Shown here piece by piece: positions 55,141 to 63,305 of a DNA stretch of 64,000 bases. How positions within the stretch are numbered: position 1 is the first letter of the stretch; each line of letters begins with the position of its first letter. The DNA is from Gemmatimonadota bacterium (lineage in GTDB: Bacteria > Gemmatimonadota > Gemmatimonadetes > Longimicrobiales > Gaopeijiaceae). The position numbers and the translations under genes were made by a program. The stretch spans positions 83,912 through 147,911 of the forward strand of contig JABDLS010000058.1 of NCBI GenBank assembly GCA_013002885.1, given 5' to 3'. The notes beneath the pieces are model-generated. The model was not told the DNA's origin, did not search any database, and was given only the letters and a program-made list of their open reading frames with translations.

Positions 55141-56088
55141 TCAGCCCGCCGGACCGCTCAAGACCAGGGCATAAAGGCCGTCGTCGTCTTCGATCCAACG
55201 GTCCACGACGAGGCCCGCGGGCCGGTAGAGCCCCTCGATGGTGGGTCGGTCGTACTTGGAGCTGATTTCCGTGCGGATCGCCTCTCCCTCGGCTATGGCG
55301 ATCCCCGCCTCCCCGGGAAAGCGCACACATTGATCACGCCGGGCGACCAGGCTGGTCTCGATTCGCCCGCCTTCGGCGTCGTACGTCGAGCGATGTTCGA
55401 AACCGTCCAGATCGAAGTCGCTTCCGAATCGTCGATTGAGGACCGAGAGGATGTTGAGACTGAACCGGGCGGTGACGCCCCGAGCGTCGTTGTAGGCTGC
55501 CTCGACACGTCCTACCGTCTTCTTCGGCCCTGGGCGCAGGTCGACGCCGAGAAGGAAGCGATCCCCCTCATCGAGTCTGCTCGCGATTCGACAGAGGAGC
55601 TCTTCGGCCTGGCCCTCGTCGAAGTTGCCCAGAGTACTGCCCAGAAAGGCGATCCAACGCGGATGCGGGAGAGCTCCGGGCAGATCCAGAGGTTCCGTGA
55701 TATCACCGATGTGTGGCTGAACCTCGAGCTCGGGGTACTCCTCCCGGAGGCGTGCGGCGGTCTTCTCCAGGAAGTCCGCTGATACATCCACCGGAACGTA
55801 GGCTCGACCACAGCCCGCGGCCTCCATGGCATCCAGGATGATCCGCGACTTCTCGGCACTCCCGGCCCCGAGCTCCACCAGAGTCGCCGGACGTAGCTCT
55901 CCGATGAGCCCGGGCATGCTAAGCTCCAGAAGTGCCCGTTCTGTTCGGGTCAGATAGTACTCGTCCAACTCGGTGATCGCTTCGAACAGGCGCGAGCCCC
56001 TCTCATCGTAGTGGTACTTGGTGGGGATGCGCTTTTCCGGCCCGCGAAGTCCGGCGAATACCTCGGCGAACCCATTGTCGTCAATCAT
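55141..56088 (-). CDS. egtD: L-histidine N-alpha-methyltransferase EgtD
   Basis: 315 residues, the size of EgtD (about 320). It trimethylates histidine to hercynine with three SAM, the first step of ergothioneine synthesis. Family marks are PTKYHYDERGSRLFEAIT, LDEYYLTRTERALL, LVELGAGSAEKSRIIL (SAM loop), FLGSTLGNF and LLGVDLRPGPKK. The frame is open far upstream, but ATG 56088 overlapping the egtB stop by eight bases is the family start. Confidence 0.95.
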   Translation of the reverse strand: MIDDNGFAEVFAGLRGPEKRIPTKYHYDERGSRLFEAITELDEYYLTRTERALLELSMPGLIGELRPATLVELGAGSAEKSRIILDAMEAAGCGRAYVPVDVSADFLEKTAARLREEYPELEVQPHIGDITEPLDLPGALPHPRWIAFLGSTLGNFDEGQAEELLCRIASRLDEGDRFLLGVDLRPGPKKTVGRVEAAYNDARGVTARFSLNILSVLNRRFGSDFDLDGFEHRSTYDAEGGRIETSLVARRDQCVRFPGEAGIAIAEGEAIRTEISSKYDRPTIEGLYRPAGLVVDRWIEDDDGLYALVLSGPAG

Positions 56089-57430
56089 CTCTGGCACACC
56101 GTAATCCGCTGAAGATCTGGCGCCGGACGGGGTAGTCCCAGTTCCGGAAGGTGTTGCGAACGGCTCCGAAGCGCGTGGCCCACGACCCCCCTCGAAGTAC
56201 CTTGAAGTCAGGGCCGTAAAACGCTTCTGAATACTCGGGATAGGGGAACATCTGATAGCCAGGGTAGGCGTGGAAGTCGGAAGAGGTCCACTCCCACACA
56301 TTGCCCAGCATGTCCCAGCACCCCAGCGCCGACGCGCCGGAGGGATACGCGCCGACGGGTGTCGTCTCGAAGACCAGGGCGTCGAGATTGGCCTGCAGCG
56401 GCGAAGGCTCCTCGTCGCCCCATGGATAGGGGCTCCTGCGGTTCGACGCCGGGTCCCATGACGCGGCGGCTTCCCATTCGAATTCCGTGGGGAGGCGCTT
56501 GCCCGCCCATCGAGCGTAGGCATCGGCCTCCCAGTAGCACACGTGACAGACCGGGCGAGACGGGTCCAGCGCCCCGAGCCGGTCCATGAAGCGTTCCGAC
56601 CAACCGTTTTCGGCCCGGACCCAGTACTTCGGGGCGTCCACCGCTTCTTCCCTCCTCCAGGCCCACCCTTCCTGCGCCCAATGCGCCGGATCGTCGTATC
56701 CGCCATCCTCGATGAAGTCCAGATAGGCTCCATTCGTCACCGGGTGGACGTCGATGGCGAACGGATTCAACTCGACCTCGTGTACCGGCCTCTCGTTGTC
56801 GTACGTCGTGGACAGGTCGTCCGTCCCGATACGGACGGGGCCGCCGGGAAACCGAACCATCGCGTCGGTGGATGGCGCATCGGTCGACGCCGACGGGGCC
56901 GACATGGAACGCGGCGCAGGATACGGATCGCCCTGTTTGAGCTGGAGCGTCTGAAGGATGGTCTCGTTGTGCTGATACTCGTGCTGGAGGACCATCCGGA
57001 AAACGAAGCCCTCGTCCAGAAGCCGCCGCGTGCTTGCGCCGCTCACGGCCCCGTTCGAGCCTCCGAGAGGCAAGTCGCTCAGGCCATCGAGCACCCGTCG
57101 GCGCACCTCCGCCAGAAAAGTCCGACACTCCCGCAGGCTGGGCAGCGGCAGGGAATCGCGCACCGCTCGGGGGTTCTCGAAAGGATCGTAGATGCCGCTG
57201 AGCCCTTCCGACCCGGTCCCTCCGCCCCGAACGTTCTGCCGCAGCCAGACATCCTCGAAGTGCGCAATGTGGCCGAGATCCCATACGATGGGGCTCATGA
57301 GAGGATCGTGCTGCCGACGAAGGTCTGCTTCGGTGAGCCCCGCGGTGAGAAGAAGCGTGCGCTCCCTGGCTTCAGTGAGCAGGAGCGCGATCTCGCCCTC
57401 GGACAGTGCTCGGCCGACGTGTAGGTCCAT
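56081..57430 (-). CDS. egtB: Hercynine oxygenase / sulfoxide synthase EgtB
   Basis: 449 residues from the ATG at 57430, the usual EgtB size; the frame is open to 57517 but that would run into the divergent gene. The N-terminal DinB-like domain holds the iron-site histidines: His54 or His57 in LGHIAHFED and His150/His154 in HEYQHNE. The C-terminal FGE/formylglycine-type domain has the MLGNVWEWTSS and VLRGGSWAT signatures. It joins hercynine to a cysteine or gamma-glutamylcysteine thiol with O2. No egtA, egtC or egtE nearby, so a cysteine-using variant with an unlinked lyase is plausible. Confidence 0.94.
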   Translation of the reverse strand: MDLHVGRALSEGEIALLLTEARERTLLLTAGLTEADLRRQHDPLMSPIVWDLGHIAHFEDVWLRQNVRGGGTGSEGLSGIYDPFENPRAVRDSLPLPSLRECRTFLAEVRRRVLDGLSDLPLGGSNGAVSGASTRRLLDEGFVFRMVLQHEYQHNETILQTLQLKQGDPYPAPRSMSAPSASTDAPSTDAMVRFPGGPVRIGTDDLSTTYDNERPVHEVELNPFAIDVHPVTNGAYLDFIEDGGYDDPAHWAQEGWAWRREEAVDAPKYWVRAENGWSERFMDRLGALDPSRPVCHVCYWEADAYARWAGKRLPTEFEWEAAASWDPASNRRSPYPWGDEEPSPLQANLDALVFETTPVGAYPSGASALGCWDMLGNVWEWTSSDFHAYPGYQMFPYPEYSEAFYGPDFKVLRGGSWATRFGAVRNTFRNWDYPVRRQIFSGLRCARDD

Positions 57431-57561
57431 GACGTTGCCTGAAGGGAGAAAGTGGGCCCGCGGAAGGTAGAACGGGCCGGCGAGGGGATCTACCGGGTGC
57501 TCCGATGCCTTCCTCAACCGGTACGGGGTCGTTACCTGTTCCCGATGATCGGCGTTCCGAC

Positions 57562-58314
57562 ATGAAGAGAAGTCCAGATCAGGCCCAGAGTCTGCTCCAT
57601 GCCGACGGTGTGGAGAAGCGCTACGGCGGGGTCGTGGCTCTGGACGGCGTGAACCTCGCCGTTCCCCGAGGCAGCTGCTACGCCCTGGTCGGCGAAAGCG
57701 GCTCGGGGAAGACGACGTTGCTACGGACCTTCAACGCGATGGTCCGTCCGGACGCGGGGAGCGTCACCGTCTCCGGTCGACGGGTGGGCCAGAGCGATCC
57801 CGTGGCCCTTCGGCGATCCGTCGGGTACGTCCAGCAGGACGGCGGGCTACTGCCCCATTGGACCATCGAGCGAAATGCGGCCCTCGTGCCCCGCCTCAAC
57901 GGACGCCCGGACAGCGCTGAGCGCGCGCGCGCGGCTCTCGACCTCGTCGGACTGGCGCAAACGGATTTCGGAGGCCGCTGGCCCAAGGAGCTCTCGGGGG
58001 GCCAACGCCAGCGCGTGGCTCTGGCTCGCGCCCTCGCCGACGAGCCTGACGTCCTGCTCCTCGACGAGCCGTTCGGCGCTCTCGACGCCATCACTCGAGT
58101 CGAGGTCCAGAGGGTTTTCGCCAGGCTGCGGGGGCGCCTCGCACTTACCGTCCTTCTGGTCACCCACGACATGCGTGAGGCGTTCGAGCTCGCCGACGCC
58201 ATCGCCGTCATGAAGGACGGTCGGGTGGAACAGATCGGTCCGAGCTCCGCCCTCCTGAACGACCCCGAGACCGACTACGTGCGCGAACTCATGCTGAAGG
58301 CTGGAGTGGCGTGA
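57562..58314 (+). CDS. ABC transporter ATPase, OpuC/ProV type
   Basis: 250 residues from the ATG at 57562 (an ATG at 57505 is possible). Walker A VGESGSGKTT (about 43-52), Q-loop YVQQDG, signature LSGGQRQRVALA, Walker B VLLLDEPFGALDA and switch His in VTHDMREA. The sequence is like OpuCA/ProV, but the C-terminal CBS domains of OpuCA are absent. Overlaps the next gene as GTGA. Divergent from egtB, 131 bases apart, which suggests shared regulation and a related cargo. Confidence 0.9.
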   Translation: MKRSPDQAQSLLHADGVEKRYGGVVALDGVNLAVPRGSCYALVGESGSGKTTLLRTFNAMVRPDAGSVTVSGRRVGQSDPVALRRSVGYVQQDGGLLPHWTIERNAALVPRLNGRPDSAERARAALDLVGLAQTDFGGRWPKELSGGQRQRVALARALADEPDVLLLDEPFGALDAITRVEVQRVFARLRGRLALTVLLVTHDMREAFELADAIAVMKDGRVEQIGPSSALLNDPETDYVRELMLKAGVA

Positions 58315-59957
58315 AGCCGTCCCCTCCTTTCTGGTCGAGCCTTTCGTTCCGGGGCTCCCGCACGGCGAGCCGTCGTGCGACCGCGGCAGGATTGCTGGTC
58401 GTCGCCCTGTGGACGGTCTTCACGCCGCTCGAAGCCCAGGAGACGGGCGGCGACGCCGTCCGGCCCGATGCCGTCGTCGTGGGCAGCAAACCCTTCGCCG
58501 AGTCCTACCTCCTCGCCGAGATGTTCGCCCAGCTTCTGGAGGACCGCGGACACCCCGTCGACCGACGCCTGGGGTTGGGCTCCACCGAAATCGCCTTCGG
58601 TGGCATCCAGGCAGGCGCCGTCGATGTATACCCCGAGTACACGGGCACCGGACTTCTGGCCATCCTCGGCGAGGCTCCACCATCGGGAGCGGTGGAAGCC
58701 TACGCCCGCGTCACCACGGTCTTCGCGGAGCGGTGGGGGGCGCGATGGCTCCCGCCACTGGGCTTCGAGAACACCTACGCCATCGCCGTACGACCAGAGA
58801 CGGCCGACTCCCTCGGCCTCTCCACTCTCTCCGACCTCGCGGAGGTGGCCGAGGCTCTCGTCGCCGGGGTGAGTCCCGATTTCCAGGGACGAGCCGACGG
58901 GCTTCCTGGCTTGCAGGCGGCGTACGATCTGGTGCCCGGGCCCGTTCGCTCGCTGGTACAGTCGGTGAAGTACCAGGCTCTGGTCGAGGGCGAGGTGGAC
59001 TGGATCGACGGGTATTCCACCGACGGCCAGATCGAGCGCTACGGCCTCACGGTACTGAACGACGACCGGGGCTTCTTTCCGCCCTACGACGCCGCCGCGT
59101 TGGTGAGTCGACGTGTCGCCGAAGGGCGTCCGGCAGTCGTGGCGGTCCTCACCGAGTTGTCGGGCCGTATCGACGAGGAGTTCATGCGCGCCCTCAATCG
59201 ACGGGTGGAGATCGACGGGGCCGACGTTGCCGTGGTCGCCGCCGACGCCCTCCGCGAGCTCAGGCTGGTGAAGGGATCACCCGGGGTCCAGGCAGGCGCC
59301 GACGCGGTGGCATCAGGGCCGGACGACTCATTGGTGGCGTACATGTGGGGCCGTCGGGGAGAGACGTGGAATCAGACGCGGCGCCATCTGTTGCTGGTCT
59401 CCCTCTCCCTCCTGGCAGGCCTCTTCGTGGCCATACCTCTGGGGCTGCTCCTCGAGCGCGCCCGTGCCGCAGCGGAGGGTGTGATCCGGGCCGTGGGCGT
59501 TCTGCAGACGGTGCCGAGCATCGCCCTCCTGGCGTTCATGATCCCTCTGCTGGGCATCGGTGTCGCCCCGGCCGTCGTCGCGCTCTTCCTCTATTCCCTT
59601 TTCCCCATCGTCCGCAACACGTACAGCGGCGTCCGCGACGCTGATGGATCCGCGGTGGCTTCGGCCCGGGCCCTGGGAATGACCGAGTGGCAACTCCTCC
59701 GTGAAGTTCGCCTGCCGCTGGCGGCGCCGGTGATCATGGCCGGGGTGCGCACGGCCGCAGTCATCAATGTCGGAACCGCGACCCTGGCGGCGTTCATCGG
59801 CGCCGGCGGCCTGGGTGACCCCATCGTCGCGGGGCTCACCCTCTCCGACACCCGGATGATCCTCTCTGGAGCCATTCCGGCGGCGCTGCTGGCCCTCGTC
59901 GTCGATGCAGGGTTGGGTATGGCCGAGCGGGCCGTGACGCCGGAGGGCGTCGCCTAG
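58311..59957 (+). CDS. Fused substrate-binding protein and ABC permease, OpuBC/EgtU type
   Basis: 548 residues. A signal or anchor helix (about 25-42) is followed by a periplasmic binding domain of the OpuAC/OpuBC class (about 50-340: VVGSKPFAESYLLAEMFAQ, GLGSTEIAFGGIQAG, VYPEYTGTG). The permease domain (about 350-548) has five helices and the EAA loop ASARALGMTEWQLLREVRLP. The class takes up quaternary amines such as glycine betaine, choline and carnitine, and in some bacteria ergothioneine. In the described EgtU proteins the permease comes first and the binding domain last; here the order is reversed. Linkage to egtBD makes ergothioneine or hercynine the leading substrate, by inference. Confidence 0.88.
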   Translation: MKPSPPFWSSLSFRGSRTASRRATAAGLLVVALWTVFTPLEAQETGGDAVRPDAVVVGSKPFAESYLLAEMFAQLLEDRGHPVDRRLGLGSTEIAFGGIQAGAVDVYPEYTGTGLLAILGEAPPSGAVEAYARVTTVFAERWGARWLPPLGFENTYAIAVRPETADSLGLSTLSDLAEVAEALVAGVSPDFQGRADGLPGLQAAYDLVPGPVRSLVQSVKYQALVEGEVDWIDGYSTDGQIERYGLTVLNDDRGFFPPYDAAALVSRRVAEGRPAVVAVLTELSGRIDEEFMRALNRRVEIDGADVAVVAADALRELRLVKGSPGVQAGADAVASGPDDSLVAYMWGRRGETWNQTRRHLLLVSLSLLAGLFVAIPLGLLLERARAAAEGVIRAVGVLQTVPSIALLAFMIPLLGIGVAPAVVALFLYSLFPIVRNTYSGVRDADGSAVASARALGMTEWQLLREVRLPLAAPVIMAGVRTAAVINVGTATLAAFIGAGGLGDPIVAGLTLSDTRMILSGAIPAALLALVVDAGLGMAERAVTPEGVA

Positions 59958-59962
59958 CGGCC

Positions 59963-61246
59963 CTACCGGACGTCTTTCGTGCGCCCTGCCGACGGAGCCT
60001 TCCTCCCACCAGCAATACGGGCGAAATCCGACCCCGCCGGCTCCTGGAAGGCCTCGAGACCGAACTCTGGTAGGATCGCGATGAGGTGGTCGAAGATGTC
60101 GCCCTGGACGCCCTCGTACGTCGCCCACGCCGTGTCGTTGGTGAAGCAGTAGACCTCGATGGGAAGCCCTTTCGGCGTCGGAGCGAGTTGACGCACGAGA
60201 AGTGTCATCTCGTCGTGGACCAGGGGGTGGGCCTTCAGGTAGCTGAAGACGTAGGCCCGAAACGTCCCTGCGTTGGTCAGGCGGCGTGTCTCCGGAACGA
60301 CGTCTTCTCCGGCCTTCTCCTTCTGTGCCCGGTGCCGTGACAGCTCCTCCTGCTTCTTCGCCATGTACTCGTGCAGGAGCTCGAACTTGCTCAGGCGCGC
60401 CACCTCTTCGTCCGTCAGGAACCGCACCGTCGACAGGTCGAGGTGCACGGACCGCTTGATCCGCCTCCCCCCGGACTCGCTCATCCCTCTCCAGTTGCGG
60501 AACGAATCGGAAATGAACCGGTGAGTCGGGATGGTCGTGATGGTCTTGTCCCAATTCTGGATCTTCACCGTGTGCAACGCGATGTCGATGACGTCGCCGT
60601 CGGCGTTGGCCTGGGGCATCTCCACCCAATCGCCGATGCGGATGATGTCGTTGGACATGATCTGCAGACTCGCCACCAGGGACAGGATGGTGTCCCGGAA
60701 GACGAGCATGAGCACCGCCGTGAGGGCTCCGAGTCCCGAGAGGAATACGAGAGGCGACCGGTCGGCGAGAATGGAGATCACGACCACGATGGCCGCGATG
60801 TACACGATGAGCCCCACGACCTGCATGTAGCCCTTGATTGGTCGGCTCTTCGCCTGGGCGTAGGACTCGTTGTAGATGTCGTTGATGGCGTCCAGCAGCG
60901 CACTGAAGGAAAGCGCCGCGGTGAGGACGAGGAAGGCGAGGGCGACCCTCTGTGTGACCAGCGCCGCCACCGCGACGGCGTCGCCGCCCTCCACGATCTG
61001 ATCTGGCGTGAGCCCCAACGCGGGTCCGATTCCGTAGTAGACGACGACCGCCGGAATCGCCCGGGACAGGCGCGAGAGAACGTTCCGTTGGATGATGCGG
61101 TCGTCCCAGGTCGAGGCCGTCCGGGCGGCCACGCGCCGGATGACGTTGCGGAAGACCGTCACCGTCACTCGGTAGGCCAGGAATGCACCCACCAGTAGGG
61201 CGAGTGTCGTCCCGGCTTGGGGGAACCAGGTCGGCATGGACTCCAT
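59963..61246 (-). CDS. MscS-family mechanosensitive channel (YbdG-like)
   Basis: 427 residues. Four or five N-terminal helices, then the MscS pore helix region (LSGLGALTAVLMLVFRDTILSLVAS) and beta domain (IRIGDWVEMPQANADGDVIDIALHT, NWDKTITTIPTH), followed by a long C-terminal domain with an insertion rich in Lys/Glu. The insertion-bearing layout resembles the YbdG/MscM branch. It releases solutes on hypo-osmotic shock. It converges with the ABC permease gene, five bases apart. Confidence 0.9.
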   Translation of the reverse strand: MESMPTWFPQAGTTLALLVGAFLAYRVTVTVFRNVIRRVAARTASTWDDRIIQRNVLSRLSRAIPAVVVYYGIGPALGLTPDQIVEGGDAVAVAALVTQRVALAFLVLTAALSFSALLDAINDIYNESYAQAKSRPIKGYMQVVGLIVYIAAIVVVISILADRSPLVFLSGLGALTAVLMLVFRDTILSLVASLQIMSNDIIRIGDWVEMPQANADGDVIDIALHTVKIQNWDKTITTIPTHRFISDSFRNWRGMSESGGRRIKRSVHLDLSTVRFLTDEEVARLSKFELLHEYMAKKQEELSRHRAQKEKAGEDVVPETRRLTNAGTFRAYVFSYLKAHPLVHDEMTLLVRQLAPTPKGLPIEVYCFTNDTAWATYEGVQGDIFDHLIAILPEFGLEAFQEPAGSDFARIAGGRKAPSAGRTKDVR

Positions 61247-62519: not shown

Positions 62520-63305
62520 CTACTCGTACAGATCGTCCAGATCTACCCGGGAGAGCTGGAAGAGATAGTCGGCGATCCGCCGACTCACCGCGTCGAAGCA
62601 GTCCCTCCCCTTCTCTGCCGTGGCTCCCGACGGGTCGCCCACGCCTGTGTCATCGGTTACCCGGCTCCACTGGCGCGGCGCCCATGCCCAGCCCTCACGC
62701 ATGGCGGTCAGCTTCCAGGACCGTCCTGACCCTGGGCCGGCCTCGTCGAGAGGGTGCACCAGGTCGGGCCTGAGGTGGAGCACCAGGCTGGTCTCCATCT
62801 CGCCTGCATGATCCCCTGCCTCCCCGAACATGTCCTGGGTTCCGTGAATCCGGAACCAGTCCAGCGTGCTGAGAAAGACGCCCGTGGCAGACTGAAGCTC
62901 GCGGATCATGGCACGGAAGTCGTTGCCTCCATGGCCGTTGAGGACCACCAGACGGTCGAAACCCTGACCCTCGAGGCTCTCGACCACGTCAGCCAACACG
63001 GCTGCCTGGGTACTCGGGTGCATGTTGATGGTCCCGCGGAGATCCATCTGCTGCGCGTTGACCCCGAAGGGCACGGTGGGCAGAACGAGGGTGCGGCACC
63101 CGCGTTCCCATGCCAGCCGACCGGCTTCGGCGGCGATGGCCTCGCTTTCGTACACGTCTGTGGCGTACGGCAGATGCAGGTTGTGGGGCTCGGTGGCTCC
63201 CCAGGGCAGCACCGCGAGCGTGCAGCCTCCGTCGCGGACGGTCGGCCAGGTGGTCTCCGCGAGGATCCAGGGTCGCCCCCCCGCCCCGCTCGGCCGCCGT
63301 GTCAC
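62520..63305 (-). CDS. Creatininase-family amidohydrolase
   Basis: 261 residues. Metal-site residues are present: Glu39 and His41 in GATEPHNLHLP, Asp50, the His of LNGHGGND and the Glu of GDHAGEMETS. The family includes creatininase, the FAPy-deformylase ArfB and the peptidase MftE of mycofactocin synthesis; no mycofactocin genes are near, so the substrate is open. Coupled by an ATGA overlap to the DAACS symporter upstream, which may import its substrate. Confidence 0.88.
   Translation of the reverse strand: MTRRPSGAGGRPWILAETTWPTVRDGGCTLAVLPWGATEPHNLHLPYATDVYESEAIAAEAGRLAWERGCRTLVLPTVPFGVNAQQMDLRGTINMHPSTQAAVLADVVESLEGQGFDRLVVLNGHGGNDFRAMIRELQSATGVFLSTLDWFRIHGTQDMFGEAGDHAGEMETSLVLHLRPDLVHPLDEAGPGSGRSWKLTAMREGWAWAPRQWSRVTDDTGVGDPSGATAEKGRDCFDAVSRRIADYLFQLSRVDLDDLYE

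Follow-up and report, generated by a model that had tools for sequence, protein, structure and literature searches.

What does an ATP-binding cassette (ABC) importer carry when its genes face those for the synthesis of ergothioneine? The question is posed by a 64,000 nucleotide stretch, here called the window, of a Gemmatimonadota genome (contig JABDLS010000058.1 of assembly GCA_013002885.1), in which egtB and egtD lie opposite the two genes of such an importer. The reading that we favour by a small measure, and which is drawn from sequence comparisons, is that this importer brings ergothioneine or its kin (hercynine, selenoneine) into a cell for which ergothioneine synthesis is also predicted. 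A cargo of this type appears likely because relatives of the importer adjoin ergothioneine or selenoneine genes in many phyla. The two lines of evidence on the cargo disagree, the genomic context favouring an ergothioneine-type compound and the binding pocket disfavouring one, and the balance tips only slightly towards the context.

The egt genes and the facing importer

As the first-pass annotation had it, the two gene pairs are separated by 131 bases, and this gap lies exactly at 57431-57561, between the ATG of egtB and that of the ATPase gene, for which an in-frame ATG at 57505 is an alternative start. On the minus strand, egtB (56081..57430) encodes the sulfoxide synthase and egtD (55141..56088), with which it overlaps by 8 bases, encodes the histidine N-alpha-methyltransferase that makes hercynine. 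On the plus strand, the gene for the importer ATPase (57562..58314) overlaps by 4 bases the gene (58311..59957) for a 548-residue fusion of a binding protein and a permease. All four frames are open. In the fusion the binding domain comes first (OpuAC, residues 54-315, 58470..59255, plus strand), followed by the permease domain (BPD_transp_1, residues 374-541, 59430..59933, plus strand), which presumably has its EAA-type loop at about residue 450, and an AlphaFold2 model of the fusion made with 22 relatives has a mean predicted local distance difference test (pLDDT) score of 85.3. The ATPase (ABC_tran) includes Walker A, LSGGQ and LLLDEP motifs, and its best NCBIfam relative is the proV family, below the cut-off. 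An OpuAC binding domain, a BPD_transp_1 permease and an ABC_tran ATPase encoded together constitute a quaternary-amine-class ABC importer, and the OpuAC match confirms the class previously proposed for the binding domain.

The window EgtB and EgtD exceed the cut-offs of the NCBIfam equivalog models (412.7 bits against 360 for TIGR03440 and 309.9 bits against 290.9 for TIGR03438, respectively), EgtD also matching Methyltransf_33, and the nearest solved structures are mycobacterial EgtB (4x8b, E 2.4e-106) and EgtD (4pim, E 1.3e-58). Scored with the SenA model NF041186, the window EgtB reaches 348.9 bits, under the cut-off of 420, and is not SenA by score. In the window's own genome, which is 89.5% complete, there is no match to EgtC and the best match to EgtE has 159.7 bits for a cut-off of 400; hence, the complete ergothioneine route is a prediction only. 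The role of EgtE could fall to other C-S lyases.

Linkage to egt and sen genes in other genomes

With the fusion, EgtD and EgtB as queries, we searched 148 whole genomes, including the window's own. The fusion was matched in 78, EgtD in 90 (E 1e-20) and EgtB in at least 55 (E 1e-60), the last being a lower bound because this threshold misses a second EgtB type in G006, G030, G111 and G141. The 78 importer genomes include eight with separate permease and binding-protein genes, as well as a permease-like match (30%, G047) and a partial match with no OpuAC (G037). Matches to PF04069 correspond to the window-type importer apart from G047, an additional match in G099 and three weak matches (G104, G113 and G118). 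The contig that carries the importer also bears a homologue of egtD or egtB no more than 10 kb away in 40 of the 78 genomes, on the opposite strand in 37; eight permease rows from genomes already represented were omitted from this count. Importer and egt genes are both present in 63 genomes, the importer only in 15, egt genes only in 30 and neither in 40 (Fisher p 3e-6, ignoring kinship). In six linked genomes egtD alone adjoins the importer, and egtB is found elsewhere over the cut-off in two of these (G111 and G141), and below the cut-off or partial in two (G050 and G048), while for G016 there is only a weak match and in G019 it was not found. The importer is missing from four relatives (G001, G009, G011 and G061), in which an MscS gene lies directly beside egtB, indicating that synthesis can be retained after loss of the importer.

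Among named genomes at least 573 relatives were confirmed, and the best 80 were kept by likeness to the fusion, irrespective of context. Only egtB/egtD-family matches within 5 kb (tblastn E <1e-8, at least 100 residues) were considered neighbours. Such a gene is present at 29 of the best 80 loci, 11 of the 26 with Gemmatimonad titles and 18 of the 54 others; the labels are the depositors' titles, and L160, L179 and L193, which are titled as other phyla, group with the Gemmatimonad rows. At two further loci an egt gene lies 6-7 kb away, and the stretch searched contains none at the remaining 49. Titles among the 18 are Nitrospira/Nitrospirales (five), Ignavibacteria (two), Burkholderiaceae and Betaproteobacteria (two) and, once each, Halioglobus, Rhodospirillales, Myxococcales (L218), Binatia, Eisenbacteria, Gemmataceae and Rokubacteria; two are unplaced. 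Of a sample scored with the curated models, EgtD is over the cut-off in L182, L201, L215, L220, L224 and L230, and EgtB in L201, L214, L215, L218 and L222. The importer precedes egtD in the five Nitrospirales loci and in L230, follows it in L215 and L220, precedes a single EgtD-EgtB open reading frame (ORF) in L218 and is divergent from egtB in L201 and L222. At two Nitrospirales loci (L182:5925-7310 and L183:5783-6997) a sulfoxide-synthase-like protein is paired with the importer and egtD, and the EgtB-like protein of L182 scores 222 bits as OvoA-type, 185 as SenA and 184 as EgtB, all below cut-off.

We estimate that chance would place the importer this near to egtD at well under 1% of loci (approximately 10 kb in 4 Mb), and a linkage that recurs in relatives and in other phyla is thus more than chance. 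Inherited synteny with no functional tie would be consistent with the shared descent of many genomes of one class and with the frequent absence of linkage, the egt genes being on another contig in 21 importer genomes and far away on the same contig in two. We nevertheless consider it very improbable, as the gene orders differ across phylum labels, two importer architectures are involved and the outer neighbours change. When 37 of the 40 linked loci were entered into a comparison of outer neighbours, which returned 31 and relied on automatic gene calls that include some shadow ORFs, the neighbour shared most often recurred at 4 of 27 loci beyond the importer and at 5 of 26 beyond egtD. In a tree of 81 fusions, 30 rows are linked, and this state involves 21 changes compared to a mean of 24.5 (19-30) for 200 label shuffles, so that the linkage is dispersed over the tree rather than inherited as a single block.

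The divergent gaps were also compared. No 6- to 8-mer shared among 27 of them exceeded the shuffled maximum (10 further pairs were skipped as too long or, in one case, as a partial match), and co-regulation is therefore without support. At one locus egtD and the importer ATPase gene are separated by a gene for a flavoprotein resembling disulfide oxidoreductases (L094:5585-7015, plus strand); its best NCBIfam scores are below cut-off, and an ergothioneine-disulfide reductase would fit.

Two relatives of the fusion are in selenoneine clusters. These loci, L224:3614-9440 (Burkholderiaceae) and L227:2-5358 (a betaproteobacterium), contain, in this order, egtD, senA (on the opposite strand), senB, selD/senC and the fusion, the ORF of which, with starts assigned mechanically, begins 5 bases past selD/senC or overlaps it by 1 base. 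In L224, SenB scores 428 (cut-off 300), SelD 418 (TIGR00476, cut-off 125) and SenA 416.2, just under its cut-off of 420, which is exceeded by SenA of L227 (427.8 bits). Its score (432.1, cut-off 420) likewise marks the EgtB-like protein of L232 as SenA. Beside the fusion of L224 no match to an ATPase gene was found, nor was there one in L227, where only about 600 downstream bases were searched. SenB and SenC were sought in 162 loci (L070-L151 and L154-L233) and found only in L224 and L227; neither senB nor senC was found in the Gemmatimonad-class loci searched.

In a second importer architecture, found in four genomes (L101-L104), the ATPase, permease and binding protein each have their own gene, and opposite these genes is a single ORF with matches to EgtD as well as to EgtB. 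In L101 (9228-11585, plus strand) this ORF is over both NCBIfam cut-offs, with EgtD at 44-342 and EgtB at 360-782. L105 has the separate-gene importer opposite egtD. A further joined ORF with EgtD first is L218:9334-11892, and a quaternary-amine importer adjoins in each case. The order EgtD then EgtB is that of fungal Egt1. Hence, the linkage to egt genes that the first-pass annotation suggested looking for in relatives does recur, in 40 of 78 importer genomes, at 29 of the best 80 named-genome loci and twice in a selenoneine cluster, and its occurrence with two architectures, in varied orders, with changing outer neighbours and in sen clusters was counted in favour of an ergothioneine-type cargo.

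The binding pocket and the cargo

If the cargo is of this type, the binding domain, tethered to the membrane, would enclose the trimethylammonium group in an aromatic cage, predicted by alignment to be made up of Y110, Y156, Y235 and Y259 with N154 at the base, while K60, T113 and R194, the predicted carboxylate ligands, would hold the carboxylate of the N-trimethylated histidine derivative. The ligand would be handed to the fused permease, with the ATPase powering uptake. In producers this would allow recovery of leaked compound or uptake of that of neighbours, and for relatives that have retained the importer but lack egt genes the importer would be the only source. Deletion of betP in ergothioneine-making Corynebacterium glutamicum reportedly raised production marginally (PMC12689799), which is a published hint that producers may re-import the compound. 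Retention of the aromatic cage and of the carboxylate-holding lysine, threonine and arginine was counted for an ergothioneine-type cargo.

A number of observations weigh against it. F62, Y110, F152 and D190 occupy the positions of G244, F293, Y337 and E375 in SpEgtUC, the binding domain of the pneumococcal ergothioneine importer. At the first three, which mark SpEgtUC, the glycine-betaine binder AfProX has the same F, Y and F, and alignment of the pocket with EgtUC, the check originally proposed, thus went against the earlier reading. Ergothioneine binding by SpEgtUC is weakened approximately 100-fold by G244F and 500-fold by E375Q (PMC9732360). The pocket was tried as a discriminator between linked and egt-less copies of the importer and rejected, as the expected difference is absent. 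An 11-position motif, K-F-Y-T-F-N-Y-D-R-Y-Y, is found in 33 of 40 linked rows, 17 of 23 with egt genes elsewhere and 8 of 13 without egt genes (76 rows from 75 of the 78 genomes, including truncated rows and G108 twice and leaving out G037, G047 and G054). From the context, egt matches are absent from 15 of the 78 genomes with the importer, 30 of the 70 importer-less genomes carry egt genes and, at 34 of the 54 non-Gemmatimonad loci among the best 80, the stretch searched contains none. The importer of Gemmatirosa kalamazoonensis (62%) is on a plasmid with no egt gene within 8 kb, and no importer lies beside plasmid senB in the two records inspected of three. No BCCT gene was found in the window's own genome, and hence the importer may be the only betaine importer there.

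In the aligned fused relatives, G at position 244 or F at 293 is found in none, and position 375 is mostly E outside the Gemmatimonad clade, whether egt-linked or not. The pocket of the separate-gene importers differs again (F341, N419 and E375).

The same residues raise the question of whether the importer serves betaines in general and mainly glycine betaine, lying beside egt genes through shared stress tolerance or because betaine provides methyl groups for EgtD. Both the F, Y and F and the four-tyrosine cage are as in AfProX, which is matched by the fusion slightly better (E 2.9e-50) than EgtUC is (E 1.2e-44 at best). The window importer is also the only OpuAC-type importer in a genome in which no BCCT carrier was found, and a gene for an MscS-type mechanosensitive channel (59963-61246, minus strand) is next door, convergent with the importer. 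However, at the base of the cage N154 is shared with EgtUC and replaces a D of AfProX, D190 replaces an E of AfProX, and glycine betaine gives no reason for a place directly after senB-selD/senC. Though MscS adjoins the importer at five loci, the window among them, it was matched at none of the best 80 cross-phylum loci, compared to 29 for the egt family, and its proximity is therefore taken as local synteny. We regard a betaine importer as unlikely, while giving it real weight. Past the channel gene are a 426-residue ORF without a Pfam match and then a creatininase-family gene (62520-63305, minus strand).

Import of another quaternary amine or amino acid (choline, carnitine, proline betaine or histidine) as a pathway precursor or methyl donor appears improbable. 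The top sequence and fold matches are choline, acetylcholine and nicotine sensor proteins built on this binding-protein class, the fold matches being ties and uninformative on the ligand. The carboxylate-holding lysine and arginine are retained, and as OpuBC and OpuCC work without that lysine salt bridge (PMC9732360), choline fits less well. The original proposal that synthesis and uptake are joined at one locus is supported in part: the recurrent egt linkage argues for it and the pocket residues against it. Import of ergothioneine by a producer is an inference.

Comparison with known systems

The importer class is already known, and the reversed fusion with its egt or sen linkage is new. We found no description of this linkage in the open-access literature searched, supplements being outside its scope, and the word 'transport' was not found in the part of PMC10702425 consulted. 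Bacterial ergothioneine importers described so far are from hosts that do not make ergothioneine. If the cargo is ergothioneine or selenoneine, import and synthesis would be joined in producers of many phyla, the selenoneine clusters would gain a candidate transporter, and the pocket rules from pneumococcal EgtU would be too narrow for finding such importers. The fusion with the binding domain first may even lie at the heart of a second class of importers for ergothioneine or selenoneine in bacteria, though we hold this to be slightly short of probable. Such a class would have a pocket solution other than that of EgtU (F, Y and F, with Asp or Glu at position 375), span about nine phylum-level labels and occur in organisms that also synthesise chalcogen-histidine betaines, and that would thus recycle or share these compounds instead of being confined to either synthesis or scavenging.

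The binder AfProX, for glycine betaine and proline betaine, is from Archaeoglobus fulgidus. Its four-tyrosine cage, F15 and F107 have counterparts in the window domain (Y110, Y156, Y235, Y259, F62 and F152), whereas D109 and E145 (positions 339 and 375) are replaced by N154 and D190, and unlike AfProX the window domain is fused to a permease and egt-linked. Compared to the sen cluster (SenA, SenB and SenC), in which two relatives of the fusion directly follow senB-selD/senC, the window holds egtB and not senA by curated score.

EgtU of Streptococcus pneumoniae (EgtUBC and an ATPase) and BilE of Listeria resemble the window importer in class, in the binding-protein/permease fusion and in the separate ATPase. 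Y341/Y419/Y443, N339 and K242/T296/R379 of SpEgtUC correspond to Y156/Y235/Y259, N154 and K60/T113/R194, but this match is not specific because the cage and carboxylate residues are largely common to other members of the class. Structures of EgtUC I243P, T274G and the double mutant with bound ergothioneine are listed by title in the PDB; both positions differ in the window, and these structures were counted for an ergothioneine-type cargo. EgtU of Helicobacter pylori (PDB 8dp6 and 8dp7) also ranks among the closest known systems. A Leuconostoc plasmid (L152:2302-6209) encodes in a row a permease/binding protein of EgtU type, whose pocket is of the G244/F293/Y337 type, an ATPase and an NAD(P)/FAD oxidoreductase, with a gene of the thioredoxin family nearby. 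In EgtU, as in the Leuconostoc homologue, the permease precedes the binding domain, the reverse of the window fusion. This order, G244, the F293/Y337 pair and E375, replaced here by F, Y, F and D, led us to reject membership of the SpEgtU subfamily, and the EgtU-like identity suggested earlier did not hold. The hosts in which EgtU has been described do not produce ergothioneine (PMC9732360), whereas the window importer adjoins the biosynthesis genes.

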